Positions 43,345-50,571 of a stretch of 64,000 nucleotides of DNA are shown piece by piece (positions within the stretch are counted from its first letter, which is position 1; the number at the start of each line of letters is the position of its first letter). Source of the stretch: Rhodovulum sp. P5 (lineage in GTDB: Bacteria; Pseudomonadota; Alphaproteobacteria; Rhodobacterales; Rhodobacteraceae); the NCBI RefSeq assembly GCF_002079305.1, contig NZ_CP015039.1, forward strand, positions 1,075,501 to 1,139,500. The letters are read 5' to 3'. Under the pieces are notes generated by a model that saw only the letters and a list, made by a program, of their open reading frames with translations, did not search any database and was not told the DNA's origin. The position numbers and the translations under genes are program-made.

Positions 43345-45663
43345 ATGTTTCGAAAATTCACCCAGATGCCGATCAGCCGCCGCCTTCCGGTGATGCTGGT
43401 CCTGATCCTCGCCTTCACGACGACGGCGATGGGCGTGACGCTGTACCAACTGGCCCAAAGCATGCGGATCGAGGCCGCGCAGACGATGATCAAGGGCCTT
43501 GCCGAGGATCAGGCCGCCCGAGTCGAGGAATGGGTGCATTCCAAAGCGACCCATCTTGCCGGAAAGGCCGCAACGCCACTGGCATCCAAGGCCGTCACCA
43601 CCCTTGACGCGGCCATTGCCGTCGACGGCGGGGATCTGAAAGCGGTGCAAAAGGCCTATGTCACCGACAACCCCCACCCCCTTGGTCAGCGTCAGGCACT
43701 GGAAGACGCCGGCGACGGGTCGGCCTATTCCGCCGCGCATGCGCCGGTGCAGCGGCAGTTGCGCAGCATGCTGGACAACTTCGGCTACTACGACATCTTC
43801 CTGTTCAACCTGAAAGGCGACCTGATCTACACCGTCGTGAAAGAGGCCGATTTCGGCGAGAACTTCGCCACCGGCAAATACGCCGATACCGGTCTGGGTC
43901 AGGTCTACCGAGAGGCCGCGAAGGCCGCCAAGGGCAGCGTCGCGATTTCCGATTTCGCCCCCTACGCCCCCAGCGCCGACGCACCGGCAGGGTTCATGGC
44001 CAGCCCGATTTTCGATTCCAACGGCACCCGGGTTGGCGTCATGGCGTTCCAGCTTCCCATCGACATGCTGGCCGATCACATCAATGCCACCGCCGCGCTG
44101 GGCGAAAAGGGCGACATCTACATCGCCGCCGTGGACGGCACCGCGCGGACCGCATCGCATTTCCAGGGACGATTCAAGATTTTCGACGATCTGGGCTTTG
44201 TGCCGTATGTCGCGGCGCACGATGCGGGAAAGACCGGATTCTTCAGTGGTGATGTAGGGGCCAGCGGCGACAAGACGCTCGCCTATACGCGCGAGATCGA
44301 ATTCGACTGGGCCGACTGGATGATCGTCGTTGAACTCGATCAGGCAGAGACGCTGGCCGACCTCGCCGCCTTCCGCCACAGCGTAATCGGGTTGGTGGCC
44401 GGCAGTCTTGTTCTGGCACTCGTCATCAGCATCTTTGCGTCGCGCGGCATCACCCGCCCCCTGCAAAGCTTTCTGAACTCGATGCAGAAGGTCGCCTCGG
44501 GCGACTATCGTGCCGACATCTCCGTGGCCGAGCGTGGCGACGAGATCGGCAGCCTGGGGCGCATGCTTGTGGAATATCGCGACCGTCTGGCCGAGACCGA
44601 AGAGCTTCAGGCCAAGCGCACGCGCGACATGCAGGCCCAGGAATCGGTGACCGACAAGCTGGCCGCCGCAATGGCCGCACTGTCCGAGGGCGATCTAAGC
44701 CGCACGCTGGACGATCGCTTCCCCTACGGCTTCGAACCGATCCGGGAGAACTTCAACAAGTCGGTGCTGAACCTGCGTGAAATCCTGGCCTCCGTGGTGG
44801 ACAACGCCAACGAGATCCATGTGCGCGCCGAGGAAATCGCGGATTCCTCCGACGACCTTTCGCGGCGCACCGAAAATCAGGCGGCGACGCTGGAAGAAAC
44901 CGCCGCCGCCCTTGACGAACTCACCTCCAGCGTCCGGGCCAGTGCCGATGGCGCCTCACAGGTGGAAAGCGTGGCGCGCGAGGCCCGCCACAACGCCGAG
45001 AAGAGCGGCGAGGTCGTGGACAAGGCAGTCGAGGCGATGTCGGAAATCAAGCGTTCCTCTGACGGGATCGTGCAGATCATCGGCGTGATCGACGACATCG
45101 CCTTCCAGACCAACCTTCTGGCGCTGAACGCCGGCGTCGAGGCTGCCCGCGCGGGCGAGGCCGGCCGGGGTTTCGCGGTCGTGGCCTCGGAAGTGCGTGC
45201 ACTGGCCCAGCGTTCCTCCGAAGCGGCGCGGGAAATCAAGCAGCTGATCTCTGGCAGCACCGATCATGTCGAATCCGGCGTCGAACTGGTCAATCGCACC
45301 GGCGAGGCCCTGACCGACATCGTCAAGAGCGTCAGCAATATCTCGGATCTGATCAGCGGGATCACCTCTGGCGCGCAGGAACAGTCGATCGGCCTGGGCG
45401 AGATCAATGTGGGCGTCACCGAACTGGACAAGGTGACCCAGCAGAACGCCGCGATGGTCGAAGAGGCCACCGCCGCGGCCAACACGCTGAAACAGGAAGC
45501 GACCAACATGAAGGGCCTTGTGTCGCAGTTCCGCCTGGCAGGCGGCGCGGCCCGGGCCGGAACGATCGCCACCCACAGGGCGACCAGCGGCCCCGCGTCA
45601 CCCCGGGCCCTGCCCCAACCGCAGGCCCGTGCTGCAAACGGCGACGGCTGGCGTGACTTCTGA
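43345..45663 (+). CDS. Methyl-accepting chemotaxis protein
   Basis: A 772-residue transmembrane chemoreceptor with TM1 about 15-35, a large periplasmic dCache-like sensor (about 40-345), and TM2 (HSVIGLVAGSLVLALVISIFA). HAMP (ITRPLQSFLNSMQKVASGDY) is followed by a second HAMP-like segment (LAAAMAALSEGDLSRTL) and the signalling domain with hairpin IIGVIDDIAFQTNLLALNAGVEAARAGEAGRGFAVVASEVRALAQRSSEAAREIK. The C-terminus GWRDF fits the aromatic-x-x-aromatic pentapeptide that docks CheR/CheB. GGAG precedes the ATG at 43345. Ligand unknown. Confidence 0.94.
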   Translation: MFRKFTQMPISRRLPVMLVLILAFTTTAMGVTLYQLAQSMRIEAAQTMIKGLAEDQAARVEEWVHSKATHLAGKAATPLASKAVTTLDAAIAVDGGDLKAVQKAYVTDNPHPLGQRQALEDAGDGSAYSAAHAPVQRQLRSMLDNFGYYDIFLFNLKGDLIYTVVKEADFGENFATGKYADTGLGQVYREAAKAAKGSVAISDFAPYAPSADAPAGFMASPIFDSNGTRVGVMAFQLPIDMLADHINATAALGEKGDIYIAAVDGTARTASHFQGRFKIFDDLGFVPYVAAHDAGKTGFFSGDVGASGDKTLAYTREIEFDWADWMIVVELDQAETLADLAAFRHSVIGLVAGSLVLALVISIFASRGITRPLQSFLNSMQKVASGDYRADISVAERGDEIGSLGRMLVEYRDRLAETEELQAKRTRDMQAQESVTDKLAAAMAALSEGDLSRTLDDRFPYGFEPIRENFNKSVLNLREILASVVDNANEIHVRAEEIADSSDDLSRRTENQAATLEETAAALDELTSSVRASADGASQVESVAREARHNAEKSGEVVDKAVEAMSEIKRSSDGIVQIIGVIDDIAFQTNLLALNAGVEAARAGEAGRGFAVVASEVRALAQRSSEAAREIKQLISGSTDHVESGVELVNRTGEALTDIVKSVSNISDLISGITSGAQEQSIGLGEINVGVTELDKVTQQNAAMVEEATAAANTLKQEATNMKGLVSQFRLAGGAARAGTIATHRATSGPASPRALPQPQARAANGDGWRDF

Positions 45664-45711
45664 GGTCAACCCGGCCCCCGAAGGGTTGTGCAGGCGATAG
45701 CCGTTTCCCGG

Positions 45712-46182
45712 TCACCCGATCCCCGCCCGTTCCAGCGCCGCCTGCATCCTGGGGTCTGGAACGGTATTGGGAGGGGATGACAGACGACCGGCGCCCTTCC
45801 AGCCGGTCGTGACTGCGCGACAATGCCAAAAGCCCGCCTCTTGCGTCACGAAGACGCGGGACAAGGGCAAAGGGTCAAGCTTGTGCGCGCGCCATTGCAG
45901 CCGACCGAACGGGCCGCCGGGGACGAGGCACCATTTCGGCGGGCACGGCTCGCAAGCGGGGTCGCCGAAAACATGCGCCGCATGGCAGGCCCGCCCCTGA
46001 AAGCCCGGAGACGGGAAACGCCACACGCCGGCGAACCGGACAAAGCCAAACCGGGATCGCCGTGCGAGGTCGAACACCGTCCCGCCCTTGGAATGGACCA
46101 ATTCATCGACATCGCAGTTCAACACGCCCCTGGCCGAAGACAGATAGCGCAGCCGGGCAATGTTCAGCATGTGGAACGGCAT
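45712..46182 (-). pseudogene. Glycosyltransferase (DUF23/GT92-like) missing its N-terminus, cut by IS21
   Basis: About 155 C-terminal residues remain: MLNIARLRYLSSARGVLNCDVDELVHSKGG (a D-x-D metal site as in GT-A folds), CPPKWCLVPGGPFGRLQWRAHKL and EAGFWHCRAVTTGWKGAGR. This resembles the family-92/DUF23-type glycosyltransferases of Rhodobacterales. Upstream of MPFHMLNIA the frame runs into the left end of the IS21-type element. The missing N-terminal half was not found on the other side of the insertion complex, so sequence has been lost. Probably non-functional. Confidence 0.78.
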
Positions 46183-46297
46183 GCAAAATTGACCCCCATC
46201 TTGGGGTGATCGGCATCCAAAAGTGACCCCCCTGATAATTCTGATCAGAAGCTTCCTCAAAAGCATGAGGGAGCAGTCAGGTGATGTTGGTTGTGGA

Positions 46298-46344
46298 GAG
46301 CAAGCCGGTGGGCGCCACTGGTTCGAGCCCACCCGGCGCGCGCG
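46298..46344 (+). repeat. Palindromic insert copy a (core 46313-46338)
   Basis: Sits six codons into istA, between GTGGAG and GCGAAGATC. The core runs from CGCCACTGGTTCGAG to CCCACCCGGCG. It shifts the istA frame by +1 relative to the ATG. It is the most diverged copy. Confidence 0.75.
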
Positions 46345-46911
46345 AAGATCAGGCGGGCGCATTTCGTTGAAGGCAAGTCGATCAAGCAGATCTGCCGTGA
46401 GTTGCGGGTGTCTCGGAACACGGTGCGCAAAGTCATCAGATCGGGGGCAACCGGGTTTACCTATGATCGCACGACGCAGCCCCGACCGAAGATCGACCCC
46501 TGGCGATCGGATCTGGACGAACTTCTGGCCGAGAATGCGCGCCGACCGAAGCGCGAACGGCTGACGCTGATCCGGATCTACGAGGAACTGCGCAACCGAG
46601 GCTATGACGGCAGCTATGACGCCGTGCGCCGATATGCGTCCAGTTGGACGAAGGCGACACAGGAGGCGTCGGCAAGCGCTTATGTGCCGCTGAGCTTCGA
46701 TCCGGGCGAGGCCTACCAGTTCGACTGGAGCCATGAGATCGTGATCCTTGATGGCGTGACCGTAACGGTCAAGGTGGCCCATGTCCGCCTGTGTCACAGC
46801 CGGATGCCGTTCGTGCGGGCCTATCCCAGAGAGACCCAGGAGATGGTGTTCGACGCGCATGACAGCGCGTTCGCCTTCTTCGGCGGCGCCTGCGCGCGGG
46901 GCATCTACGAC

Positions 46912-46955
46912 AGCGAGACCTTGTTCGCCATTGGTTCAAGAACAATGGTCGAGCG
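46912..46955 (+). repeat. Palindromic insert copy b (core 46926-46951)
   Basis: 44 nt between the codons for GIYD and KTAVD of istA, where about 6 nt would be expected. The core begins CGCCATTGGTTC and ends GAACAATGGTCG. It puts the next ~30 codons out of frame; copy c restores the frame. Confidence 0.85.
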
Positions 46956-47046
46956 AAGACAGCCGTGGACACGATCTTTGTCGGCAAGGATCGGGCCTAT
47001 AATCGCCGTTTCCAGCAGATGTGCGGGCATTACCTCGTCGAGCCGC

Positions 47047-47084
47047 CGTCCACTGGGCTTGAACCAATGGCGCCTCAATGAACG
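47047..47084 (-). repeat. Palindromic insert copy c (core 47047-47072, inverted)
   Basis: Opposite orientation to copy b. The minus strand begins CGCCATTGGTTCAAG and ends CCCAGTGGACG. It is placed between the istA codons for VEPP and CTPASGW and restores the reading frame lost at copy b. Confidence 0.82.
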
Positions 47085-47361
47085 GCCCTGCACCCCGGCG
47101 TCGGGTTGGGAGAAGGGCCAGGTCGAGAACCAGGTGGGTGTGCTCCGGCGGCGGTTCTTCGTGCCGCGGCCGAAGTTCAAATCCTTTGCCGAGTTGAACG
47201 CCTGGCTTGAGAACCGATGCATCGCCTATGCCAAGGCGAACCGACACCCCGACAATCCGGACAAGACGATCTGGGAAGTGTTCGAAGAGGAACGGTCGAG
47301 CCTGGTGCCCTATGTCGGTGCGTTCGATGGATTCCACGCCGTCCCGGCCGCGGTATCCAAG

Positions 47362-47425
47362 TCCGGGGCTCCGCCCGTTCAGGGCTGAATTGGTCCACCG
47401 GACCAATTCCGAGACACCCTTCACC
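47362..47425. repeat. Second-type palindromic insert in istA
   Basis: About 64 nt between the codons for AVSK and CLVRFD, centred on the perfect inverted repeat AATTGGTCC-ACC-GGACCAATT. The sequence is unrelated to copies a-g. It introduces an in-frame stop (TGA at 47386). Confidence 0.75.
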
Positions 47426-47636
47426 CTGCCTCGTGCGGTTCGACAAGAACCGCTACTCGGTCGATGCCCGCGCGGTCGGGCGGCCCGTCGAGATCCGCGC
47501 CTATGCCGATCGCCTGGAATGCTGGCAGGACGGTCAGGTCGTGGGGCGGCATGAACGGACTTTCGGTCGCGGCAAGACGATCTACGATCCACTCCATTAC
47601 ATCCCGGTTCTGGCGCGCAAGCCAGGCGCCTTGCGC

Positions 47637-47679
47637 AGTGAGCCATTGTGTCGCCATGTGTTCGAGACCAATGGCGAAC
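47637..47679 (+). repeat. Palindromic insert copy d (core 47652-47676)
   Basis: Between the istA codons for PGALR and APFKDWD. The core begins CGCCATGTGTTC and ends GAGACCAATGGCG. The flank GTGAGCCATTGTGT matches the left flank of copy e and the inverted flank of copy f. Confidence 0.85.
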
Positions 47680-48167
47680 GCGCCCTTCAAGGACTGGGAC
47701 CTGCCGCCAGCCCTGCGCCGTGTGCAGCGCAAGCTCGAACGTCAGCCCGGCGGCGACCGGCAAATGGTCGATATCCTCGGTGCCGTGCTCACCGATGGGC
47801 TGGAAGCTGTCGAAGCCGCCTGCGCCGAGGCCCTGTCTCACAATGTCCACTCCGCAGGGGTGGTGCTGAACAGCCTGGCCCGTCACCGCGAACCGCCACC
47901 GCCGCTGACAATCACGACGCCGGATGCGCTGAAGCTGGCCTGCGAGCCTGCCGCCAATTGCGATCGCTATGACAGTCTCAGGAGAACAACGAATGGAACG
48001 ATCACAGGTGCTGGCCGCCATGGGCCAACTGAAGCTTTACGGCATGAGGACAGCCTACGACGAGATCATCGCCGTCGCGCCGGAGGCACGCTTCCAGCGT
48101 GACGGTCAAGCGACAGCACGAGCCGCATCAGATCATTGGCGACCTCCTGACCGCCGAGATCAGTGAG

Positions 48168-48209
48168 AGCGAGCCATTGAGCGCCATTGGTTCAAGAACA
48201 ATGGCGAGC
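48168..48209 (+). repeat. Palindromic insert copy e (core 48182-48206), best-conserved copy
   Basis: 42 nt replacing about 6 nt of istB between the codons for AEISE and ARSIKYQ, adding 12 codons in frame. The core arms are CGCCATTGGTTC and GAACAATGGCG around AA, preceded by GAGCCATTGAG and followed by AGCG. I use it as the reference copy. Confidence 0.88.
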
Positions 48210-48536
48210 GCGCGCTCGATCAAATACCAGATGACCATCGCCAAGCTGCCGCTGGCCAAGGAAATCGACGAGTTCGACTTCGAGACCGCCGAGGTCAACG
48301 AGACCCTGATCCGTGATCTCGCCGCCGGAGACTTCCTCGATCATCAACGCAACCTCGTGCTGATCGGCGGCACCGGCACAGGAAAGACCCATCTCGCGGT
48401 CGGCATTGCACGCGCCTGTATCCGACGCGGCCGCCGGGGCCGGTTCTTCAACGTCGTCGATCTGGTGAACAAGCTCGACGCCGAAGCCCGGGCCGAACGA
48501 CAGGGCCGGACAGCGGACCTGATCTCTCGTCTGGAC

Positions 48537-48579
48537 TTGTTCGCCATCGGTCTCGAACGCATGGCGACGCGATGGCTCA
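48537..48579 (-). repeat. Palindromic insert copy f (core 48542-48566, inverted)
   Basis: 43 nt within the istB Walker B region, between the codons for RLD and LDELGY. The minus strand reads GTGAGCCATCGCGT, then CGCCATGCGTTCGAG, then ACCGATGGCG, nearly identical to copy d read on the plus strand. It frameshifts istB. Confidence 0.85.
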
Positions 48580-48956
48580 CTCCTGGACGAACTCGGCTAT
48601 CTCCCCTTCGCCCAGACCGGCGGCCAGCTCCTGTTCCACCTGATCAGCAAGCTCTACGAGCGGACCTCGATCATCGTGACAACCAACCTCGCGTTCGGCG
48701 AATGGCCCACCGTCTTCGGCGACGCGAAGATGACCACCGCTCTGCTCGACCGCCTGACCCACCACTGCGAGATCGTCGAGACCGGAAACGAAAGCTGGCG
48801 CTTCAAGAACCGAGCATAGCGAAATGGCCCACCACGCTGGCCCGCCGCCGCTGCGTTACATGGGGACTACGCAGCGCCGGGCCAGCTCAGCTCCAAGGGG
48901 GTCAATTTTCGGCGCCGATAGGGGGTCACGATCCAATGCCGATTGACAAACTGGGC

Positions 48957-49274
48957 GCTGTCGGTCGTGCGCTTGTACTTCTTTGTTCTCACGGCGTGAA
49001 TCCCGTTGGCTCTCATAAGCCTGCCAACCCGGCGCTCGCCGACGGACAGCCCCAGCTCCTTCAGCTCGGCCGTCATGCGCGGGCGACCATAGCTGCCCAG
49101 GCTCAGCCGCCGCTGCTCGCAAATATGGGCGAGAAGCACCATGTCCTCGCGCTGCCGCCGGCTGGGCGGGCGCCGCCGCCAGGCGCGCAAGCCGCGATCG
49201 GAAACATCGAACAGGGCGCACAGGCGCGGCCGGGACAGCGGGCCGCGATAGGCATCGATGAATGCGAACCTCAT
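48957..49274 (-). pseudogene. IS3-family transposase orfB, 5' fragment
   Basis: About 105 N-terminal codons of an IS3-type OrfB: MRFAFIDAYRGPLSRPRLCALFDVSDRGLRAWRRRP and YGRPRMTAELKELGLSVGERRVGRLMRANGI, ending at KRTTDS where the right end of the IS21 element begins. The DDE catalytic domain (DxD...E) is absent. Its ATG overlaps the orfA stop, as usual in this family. Confidence 0.85.
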
Positions 49275-49297
49275 CGCTTTTGGCCCGCAAAGAAGGC

Positions 49298-49338
49298 GCT
49301 CGCCATTGTGCTTGTACCGATGGCGCACAAGGCTCGCC
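49298..49338 (-). repeat. Palindromic insert copy g (core 49301-49325, inverted)
   Basis: In the IS3-type orfA, directly after the A6G frameshift signal. The minus strand reads GCGAGCCTTGTG, then CGCCATCGGTACAAG, then CACAATGGCGAGC. It is the only copy outside the IS21 element and shows that the inserts are not specific to one IS family. Confidence 0.83.
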
Positions 49339-49529
49339 CTTTTTTAACGTTTCCCTCTCCTCCGTCACGAGACGCAGCTCGCGGCGTAGGCGTTCGATCT
49401 CCTTCACCAGTTCCGCTTCCTTCTGCGGCACCGTGCCCGCGTCCCCATGGGCCTTGATCCACTTGTTCAGCGTCGACAGCCCGACACCAAGATCCGCCGC
49501 CACCTGCCGACGCGGCAACCCGTCCTCGG

Positions 49530-49568
49530 GGATTTGATCCCCCAGATCAAATCCTGATCCTCGAACTC
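49530..49568. repeat. Third-type palindromic insert, in IS3 orfA
   Basis: About 40 nt between the codons for ALSS and LPRRQ, containing the perfect 9-bp inverted repeat GATTTGATC-TGGGG-GATCAAATC (minus strand). Different sequence from copies a-g but the same size and style. Confidence 0.75.
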
Positions 49569-49651
49569 AGCGCGATCCGCACCGCCTCACGCTTGAATTA
49601 TCCTGTCCGCTTCTCTGCCATCGTCCGTCTCCTCGATCACATGTCATGCTC

Positions 49652-50440
49652 TCAAGAACCCGGCACTTTTCCGATGCAAGTCCAGACCGCCTCGGCCACG
49701 GTTTCCTGCCCGTGGTCGGAGCCGAGCACGAACAGGATGTCGTCACCCTCCGCCCGAAGCTTCGCCACCGTCTCGGCCACACGCCCGACGCAGGCATCCG
49801 CCGCCGCGATCCCGGCAAGGTGAGTGTCAGAGCCCAGCATATCCGCATGCATCGACAGATCAGGCTCCGACAACCAGAGTACACCAAGGGCCGGGCGGTG
49901 CTCTGTCAGGATCTCGGTGCAGAAGCGTTCCGTCAGGGCCCGGTCCCCGGCAGCGTCATGGCTGACCGTGCGCATCGCGTCGTTGGGCAGATGTATGCCG
50001 CCCGGACCGAACGAGGCCTCACGGTGATAGACATGGCCGTGCCCGTCAGGGTCGTTGAAATAGGTCGCACCGGGGGAGACGTTCGCCATCACCACCACGC
50101 CGCCGTGATCCTTCAACCGCTCGGCGAGCGTCGGAACCTTCAGCGTGCGGCCGGTGGCGCGGCGCATATGGTCGCGAAACTCCGGCTTTCCGGCGTCATA
50201 TACAACAGGCCCCTCACCTTCGTCGAACGCCATCGCATTGCCGTGCAGACCATGGGTGGCCGGCCAGCATCCGGTGGCAATCGACGCCGCCGAGGCGCGC
50301 GTGGCCGAGGGGAAGATCGCCCGGTGATTGCGAAAGCGGCGCCCCTCGGCGACCACGTCACATATCCTGGGGCAATAGTCCCGAACGACGAAATCATCGC
50401 GATGCCCGTCGCAGATCATCAGAACGGCACGCTTGCCCAT
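49652..50440 (-). pseudogene. Alkaline-phosphatase-superfamily phosphodiesterase, C-terminus lost to the IS complex
   Basis: A type I phosphodiesterase/nucleotide pyrophosphatase-like protein: MGKRAVLMICDGHRDDF (metal Asp), nucleophile region FPSATRASAASIATGCWPATHGLHGN, EPDLSMHADMLGSD and VLGSDHGQETVAEA. Homology ends at about residue 255, where sequence of the IS3 remnant takes over and the frame stops 7-8 codons later. The usual C-terminal metal-ligand segment is missing, so it is probably inactive. Confidence 0.8.
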
Positions 50441-50571
50441 TTCACCCCCTCACTCCACCAAACCACAGCGCCATAGGGCTCAAAAGGATGTGACGCAGCC
50501 GTCGCGCCCAAGAGAAACTTTCAACAAGCTTTCACGATGGTTTGGTGACGGATCACATGCAGGACCGAAAG

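Follow-up and report, generated by a model that had tools for sequence, protein, structure and literature searches.

The window analysed here, a 64,000-nt stretch of contig NZ_CP015039.1 of Rhodovulum sp. P5 (genome G000; coordinates are window positions unless stated otherwise), contains an insertion sequence (IS) of the IS21 family that spans 46170-48948 on the forward strand, has TG...CA ends and matches IstB_IS21 in Pfam at 4.7e-27. The element carries six copies (a to f) of a short palindromic hairpin together with two insertions of other kinds, and an adjoining IS3-type element, whose flanking frames match HTH_21 (Pfam), carries a seventh copy, g; the names that we give to IS families and motifs are in part presumed. 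Four copies interrupt istA: copy a (46300-46341, forward strand) lies near codon 5, has the arms GCCGGTGGG and CCCACCCGGC and replaces 5 nt by hand count; copy b (46913-46954, forward) lies at the YDN motif and replaces 4 nt (ACAT); copy c (47045-47086, reverse) stands directly ahead of CTPASGWEKG and replaces 5 nt; and copy d (47638-47679, forward) replaces 5 nt (ACGGG). Two more lie in istB, namely the reference copy e (48169-48209, forward; 5 nt replaced, AGCAG), which is the sole in-frame copy (+36), and copy f (48539-48580, reverse; 5 nt replaced, TCAGG), directly ahead of LILDELG, which we take to be a Walker-B-like motif. Copy g (49298-49337, reverse) sits at the end of the IS3 orfA directly after AAAAAAGG, in a setting where the flanking frame matches HTH_Tnp_1 just below the curated Pfam cut-off.

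A position-weight scan of the window located all seven copies where the original prediction had placed them, with c, f and g inverted as it had said. Scores were 32-41 bits for b to g and 24 bits for a, and the next distinct site reached 11.8 bits (the matrix was made from the seven copies and is circular for them, though not for the background). With up to 3 mismatches allowed, the core of copy e matches b, e and g, where shuffling leads one to expect 0.00 matches. The element of ~42 bp that had been proposed is therefore a real hairpin family, which can now be refined to units of 40-42 nt in the window that replace 4-5 nt of their target.

Each unit is a stem-loop in which a near-constant 15-nt loop (CGCCAYTGGTTCRAG) is enclosed by two arms that vary together and usually include a tandem G.A mismatch. 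Across 123 distinct units, in which the loop was located by a pattern with two mismatches allowed, all but one are 40-43 nt long (122; the other is a partial match of 35 nt), loop positions 2, 3, 4 and 9 are identical in all 123, and stem pairs 3-4 read GA opposite GA in 88. Covariation of the arms was assessed in 35 copies: nine of the ten stem pairs show double changes, and the double-change cells number 57, compared with 17.4 in shuffles and 4-12 in slid controls, an excess that is not to be read as a probability because the copies are related. Summed over the eight paired outer positions of the 123 units, there are 31 G.T pairs vs 6 A.C pairs (the outermost pair, at which the unit end may have been set wrongly, contributes 11 of the 31, and 20 vs 6 remain when it is left out), which points to the GA strand as the folding strand. 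Predicted folds of single-stranded DNA (ssDNA) are lower on that strand in six of the seven window copies, with one tie. The outer dinucleotides pair as well (GT/AC in 29, GC/GC in 19 and AT/AT in 11 of 77 rows, others being fewer). A known RNA family was ruled out, as Rfam covariance models, run on 12 loci and on window positions 45000-50500, matched nothing at E<=1, and so was a sense-strand function in the host mRNA, given an unbiased orientation relative to the host gene (37 sense and 37 antisense among 117 units, with 43 assigned to neither).

To place the units against uninterrupted sequence, we aligned the window element with five IS21 relatives, from Pukyongiella, two Paracoccus plasmids and the sampled genomes G004 and G025. 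Relative to all five, the net insertion is +38 at b, +37 at c, d and f, and +36 at e; copy a amounts to +37 and is absent from four relatives, the fifth having no coverage there. These net lengths explain why copy e alone stays in frame. The unit model found zero copies in the five relatives, which rules out a coding repeat or a native IS segment and bears out the claim that copies a-f are insertions, each replacing 4-5 nt and none accompanied by a duplication. The same segments did not turn up as native sequence of the window IS21 in unrelated strains, with the caution that f is common to genome G007 at the same site and c to Paracoccus versutus pTAV4 (L161). No uninterrupted relative found for copy g is close (69% at best); we take the copy as an insertion because it belongs to the family and because the same IS3 position is empty in two other loci, L150 and L090. 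The presence of the family in at least 144 other sampled genomes and in 14 plasmid records makes an assembly artefact unlikely.

The replacement of target bases was measured more widely by comparing the joined flanks with uninterrupted relatives, many of which are distant. In a first set, 37 of 77 copies had a spanning relative and lost 6 nt (22 copies), 5 nt (13), 4 nt (1) or 7 nt (1), the trailing base being counted there as part of the unit. In a larger set, which gave that base to the flank, 87 of 133 rows could be scored (the other 46 had no usable relative): 5 nt were lost in 47 and 4 nt in 29, so that a loss of 4-5 nt covers 76 of the 87, followed by 3 nt in 4, 6 nt in 4, and 1, 2 and 8 nt in the remaining three. 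Copy a appears in this set as a 3-nt loss, rather than the 5 counted by hand, because the model ends it too early. The closest empty sites obtained, three clean cases with mean flank identities of 92.5-93.9%, agree with these values: an IS3 of Paracoccus yeei (L159) compared with Sagittula (L240) lost 4 nt, an IS3 of Antarctobacter (L158) compared with P. sediminicola (L243) lost 5 nt, and an IS5-like element of Leisingera (L155) compared with Pseudosulfitobacter (L242) lost 4 nt. All 76 distinct flank pairs from the first set have a purine at position -1, just ahead of the unit, and 71 have a G at +1, just behind it; the +1 G belongs to the search model and is partly selected for, which does not apply to the -1 purine. 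Copying of the outer arm bases from the target was also considered and rejected, as comparison with the lost bases by eye showed no relation.

A model built from 35 copies (R1) gave 17 matches in the P5 genome, which correspond to eight distinct sites: copies a-g and a further unit at C1:2308337, located between an orfA-like frame (HTH_Tnp_1 match) and a frame that looks orfB-like by eye. Within a sample of the same family, at least 145 of 295 genomes, including that of P5, contain a match at E<=1e-3, and those counted as empty may hold weak copies because the filters were stricter there. At the level of the class, 5 of 385 genomes have a match at E<=1e-4, and these are P5, three further members of its family and, from a different family, an assembly with 10% contamination. 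Fourteen plasmid records match, all from genera of Rhodobacterales; eight of them were inspected, among which L160 fits the model only weakly. Carriage by phages was ruled out, with no match at E<=0.01 to a single consensus query among 50,697 phage records. As far as tested, the range is thus one alphaproteobacterial family (Rhodobacterales, from the names of the plasmid records). As had been surmised, the copies make up one dispersed palindromic family that occurs in IS families unrelated to each other; many further genomes carry it too.

Most units to which a label could be given lie in transposase genes. This holds for the first, score-ranked set, where the majority of loci were read as transposase genes, drawn from several IS families and frequently with several units in a single IS, and for 36 further loci (L172-L207), which comprise 26 transposase genes, 9 intergenic sites and 1 unassigned locus. 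These 36 labels were given by eye from translations, with L175 and L197 labelled solely by aligning them to other IS loci, and most IS labels rest on translations read in this way because many short fragments have no Pfam match (among sets of 84 and 85 fragments). In the first set, L059 and L066 are intergenic, L060, L084, L129, L136 and L144 carry no assignable label, and the unit of L132 interrupts a phage terminase gene (GpA_nuclease, 2.7e-47). The original description of the units as parasites of mobile elements is not borne out in that form, since exclusivity to IS elements is ruled out by the intergenic copies and the terminase gene. Six of the 11 intergenic copies (L183, L189, L193, L194, L204 and L205) directly follow the motif AAAATAYYCCGGGG; L182 and L066 resemble them by eye, and L059, L191 and L201 differ. 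The predicted empty form of this target, AAAATAYYCCGGGGGTCCGGGGG, was found 18 times in G025, 44 times in G033, 7 times in G203 and twice in G121, and not in the P5 genome (up to 3 mismatches allowed; a control pattern gave 0). At L189 a filled and an empty copy lie less than 200 bp apart, with a loss of 5 or 6 nt depending on the cut in a G run. AAAATAYYCCGGGGGTCCGGGGG is itself an intergenic repeat, present at up to 44 places per genome.

Certain positions are also occupied repeatedly. The 131 distinct insertions give 88 pairs that fall within a common alignment, and 26 of these are neighbours in one locus; in the 62 pairs from different loci the junction falls at the same position in 28 (26 exactly, 2 off by one). 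All 28 have the same orientation, compared with 21 of the other 34 pairs, and 10 of the 28 involve clearly different units (8 or more edits). These pairs are not all independent, one consisting of two IS copies of genome G015. One IS3 orfA position, after AARAAGG, is filled in seven loci (copy g, L125, L137, L138, L139, L178 and L192). A small unrooted tree puts the uninterrupted L090 among these filled loci, together with L138 (support 0.99); the position of L150 changes with the choice of root.

Elements broken by the hairpins have nonetheless multiplied. The P5 genome holds a second full copy of the IS21 element (G000:C1:347441-350219), which has all the insertions and the same ends and is 100% identical across its 2,779 bp, in addition to a partial copy of 1,685 bp and a piece of 331 bp. 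The identity of the full copies implies that the IS21 moved after it was broken. No target duplication was seen by eye at the two full copies, and no intact close IstA relative was found in this 99.99%-complete genome, where the remaining IstA protein matches consist of a 26%-identical sequence and a short fragment with 37% identity. The broken IS21 has therefore moved through help in trans or a hidden function. The 8 bp that follow the element in the window (48949-48956, AACTGGGC) are common to the broken IS21 and the partial copy (L022), after which the flanks differ. A comparable case occurs in G015, with five IS3 copies, 97-100% identical to the query over the matched part, that carry two units each.

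We consider it probable that these units form a lineage-restricted, non-autonomous family of mobile hairpins of ~40-43 nt that moved through a folded single strand. The hairpin would move as folded ssDNA or RNA, the loop and the stem shape would serve as recognition features, and an enzyme would cut the target twice, 4-5 nt apart, and drop the short piece between. Their high copy number, dispensability and mobility would make transposase genes favoured hosts, as would the hot target positions within them, and transposition of the IS would then spread a resident hairpin further. Several observations weigh against this interpretation. Neither an enzyme, an autonomous parent nor movement was observed; many empty-site comparisons are at 65-85% identity only; and the flank motif amounts to a few bits and does not account for the hot spots. 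In the computed fold of e and b, half of the loop, and not the other covarying arm, pairs with the right arm; shuffled sequences often fold at least as well as a (44 of 200) or g (27 of 200). Sixteen of the 28 same-position pairs differ by 4 edits or fewer, vs 3.9% of random pairs, so that shared descent or unit-specific targets must account for part of the recurrence. Finally, G015 has an uninterrupted IS3 relative (86% identity, L232), and multiplication of the IS3 there may thus use a helper, unlike in the P5 genome.

Should the hairpins move as proposed, they would lie near the lower size limit of mobile elements, among the smallest known, and would prey on other mobile elements. Replacement in place of duplication departs from the usual transposase signature, and the constant loop, the tandem G.A stem and the loss of 4-5 nt provide precise handles for finding the enzyme. 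The broken yet multiplied IS21, for which no intact close relative was found, offers a direct test case between mobilisation in trans and a hidden function. A bolder version, in which the ~42-nt folded strand with its constant recognition loop would constitute a minimal class of mobile element of its own, written into DNA at preferred positions in exchange for 4-5 nt, homing to conserved transposase motifs in unrelated IS families by dedicated machinery and acting as a brake on transposons, is conceivable but doubtful.

Restraint of transposons is central to another explanation, which we think improbable, namely that transposase genes are silenced by a folding cassette placed in their conserved motifs, either by the cell or by some resident element. 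Such a host device would fit the concentration of units in transposase genes, their density at L125 500-1543 (G262:C13), where seven units, one of them weak (28.8 bits), occupy 1.1 kb of one IS3-like element, and the location of several units at motifs that we presume to be conserved: YDN of IstA (b), GW-E (L150, L200 and L161) and the Walker-B-like motif (f), as well as VTD-I (L151 and L179) and TDNG (L069) of IS3 elements. However, intergenic DNA and a phage terminase gene are struck too, the broken IS elements multiplied nonetheless, and the unit, with its constant loop and its arms that complement one another, offers no obvious guide.

Slightly less credible still is a removable intervening sequence, with ribosome bypass or splicing keeping the interrupted IS functional. 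It agrees with the presence of two identical full IS21 copies that are broken yet have exact ends, in a genome where no intact close relative was found, and also with copy f: the identical unit stands at the same site in G007, where the flanks differ by 16%, and 58 of the 75 differences between the IstB regions of the window and G007 fall at third codon positions (frames chosen by GC3). Functional persistence may lie behind this pattern. The identical f unit is nevertheless also present at an unrelated IS3 position in G014 (L067), so that recent independent insertion can account for the identity at the f site, and the pattern reads as recent activity of one sub-type in the genus. Moreover, antisense units are as frequent as sense units, the GA-mismatch stem exists on one strand only, and each insertion costs 4-5 coding bases.

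It is very unlikely that the units are a mutational footprint, left when a polymerase switches template or end joining captures small DNA pieces, with no dedicated mobile unit; target bases are indeed deleted and not duplicated, and no transposase was identified, but the constant loop largely refutes this idea, with length, loop and stem conserved over the 123 distinct units and a 4-5-nt loss in 76 of 87 cases. Mobilisation of the units as REP-type repeats by a Y1 tyrosine transposase (RAYT), which would suit a small hairpin repeat with signs of single-strand folding, is just as implausible: Y1_Tnp (PF01797) occurs in 30 of the 295 genomes and not in that of P5, the units occur in at least 16 of those 30 vs at least 145 of 295 overall, an absence of association that led us to reject such mobilisation, and the unpaired GTAG end tag of GTAG REPs is absent, the outer dinucleotides being paired.

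The hairpin family is known in style and new in form, and no title or abstract opening surveyed in the open-licence literature describes it. The small dispersed repeats (SDR) of Nostoc, attributed to Elhai and colleagues in 2008, are reportedly hairpins of ~21-27 nt with compensatory changes, for which RNA intermediates are said to have been suggested. If so defined, they share compensatory changes and dispersal in unrelated contexts with the hairpins, yet differ in sequence, host phylum and context and are not known to show a 4-5-nt replacement. A parallel in choice of target is the repeat unit of pneumococcus (RUP), which is described as a non-autonomous repeat of 107 bp with inverted ends resembling IS630-Spn1 that inserts at TA with target duplication, targets IS-containing regions and inactivates transposase genes of more than six IS families (PMC2229807). 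The hairpins, likewise small, non-autonomous and disruptive of transposase genes, differ from RUP in their length of ~42 nt (40-43 nt in 122 of 123 units) and in replacing 4-5 nt (76 of 87 cases and the three clean empty sites) where RUP duplicates TA.

REP repeats of the GTAG and CGTC super-families are palindromes of 20-40 nt that lie mainly between genes and occasionally inside them (Di Nocera et al. 2013, PMC3733652). The CGTC repeats described there have no known transposase, predominate in alphaproteobacteria and possess stems of 8-9 bp, loops of 4-5 nt, a CGTC tag and mostly a CCA tail, with few and fortuitous associations with transposase genes (PMC3733652). Our hairpins resemble REPs as short palindromes that are intergenic or intragenic; they differ from the CGTC group in a longer stem, a constant 15-nt loop, the lack of a common tag or tail and the frequency of IS genes among their hosts, and from the GTAG group in the end tag and the missing RAYT gene of P5. 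The comparison with Rickettsia palindromic elements (RPE) drawn in the original prediction holds loosely, in that both are palindromic repeats inside genes; RPEs are described as 105-146 bp long and in frame in host proteins (PMC2229807), whereas the hairpins measure ~42 nt and five of the six measured window copies shift the frame, with e as the exception. By analogy, the hairpins may work somewhat like RUP, REP or SDR elements, but they lack defining features of RUP, REP and RPE.

Other small insertions were also noticed. Within istA, a 62-nt insertion of a different kind (x, 47362-47423, forward strand) contains the palindrome AATTGGTCCACCGGACCAATT and is probably another small repeat family, because related stretches occur elsewhere in G001, G016, G017 and G050. 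A 25-nt insertion in istB, again of a different kind (y, 48072-48096, forward), is absent from the five IS21 relatives, and the palindrome GGGGATTTGATCCCCCAGATCAAATCC in the IS3 orfA region (49527-49563) is possibly one more. On the Leisingera plasmid NZ_CP038235.1 (L155, ~2601-2755), two insertions of ~40 nt, whose starts are 110 bp apart, share the arms TGCCCGGCAGGCG...CTGCCGAGAGGGG around different self-complementary centres and represent a second tiny hairpin family in an IS gene. On a plasmid of P. yeei TT13 (L241, ~890-930), a unit of the present family is cut in its loop and has an IS110-family gene upstream, an arrangement that resembles the insertion of an IS110 into the hairpin.

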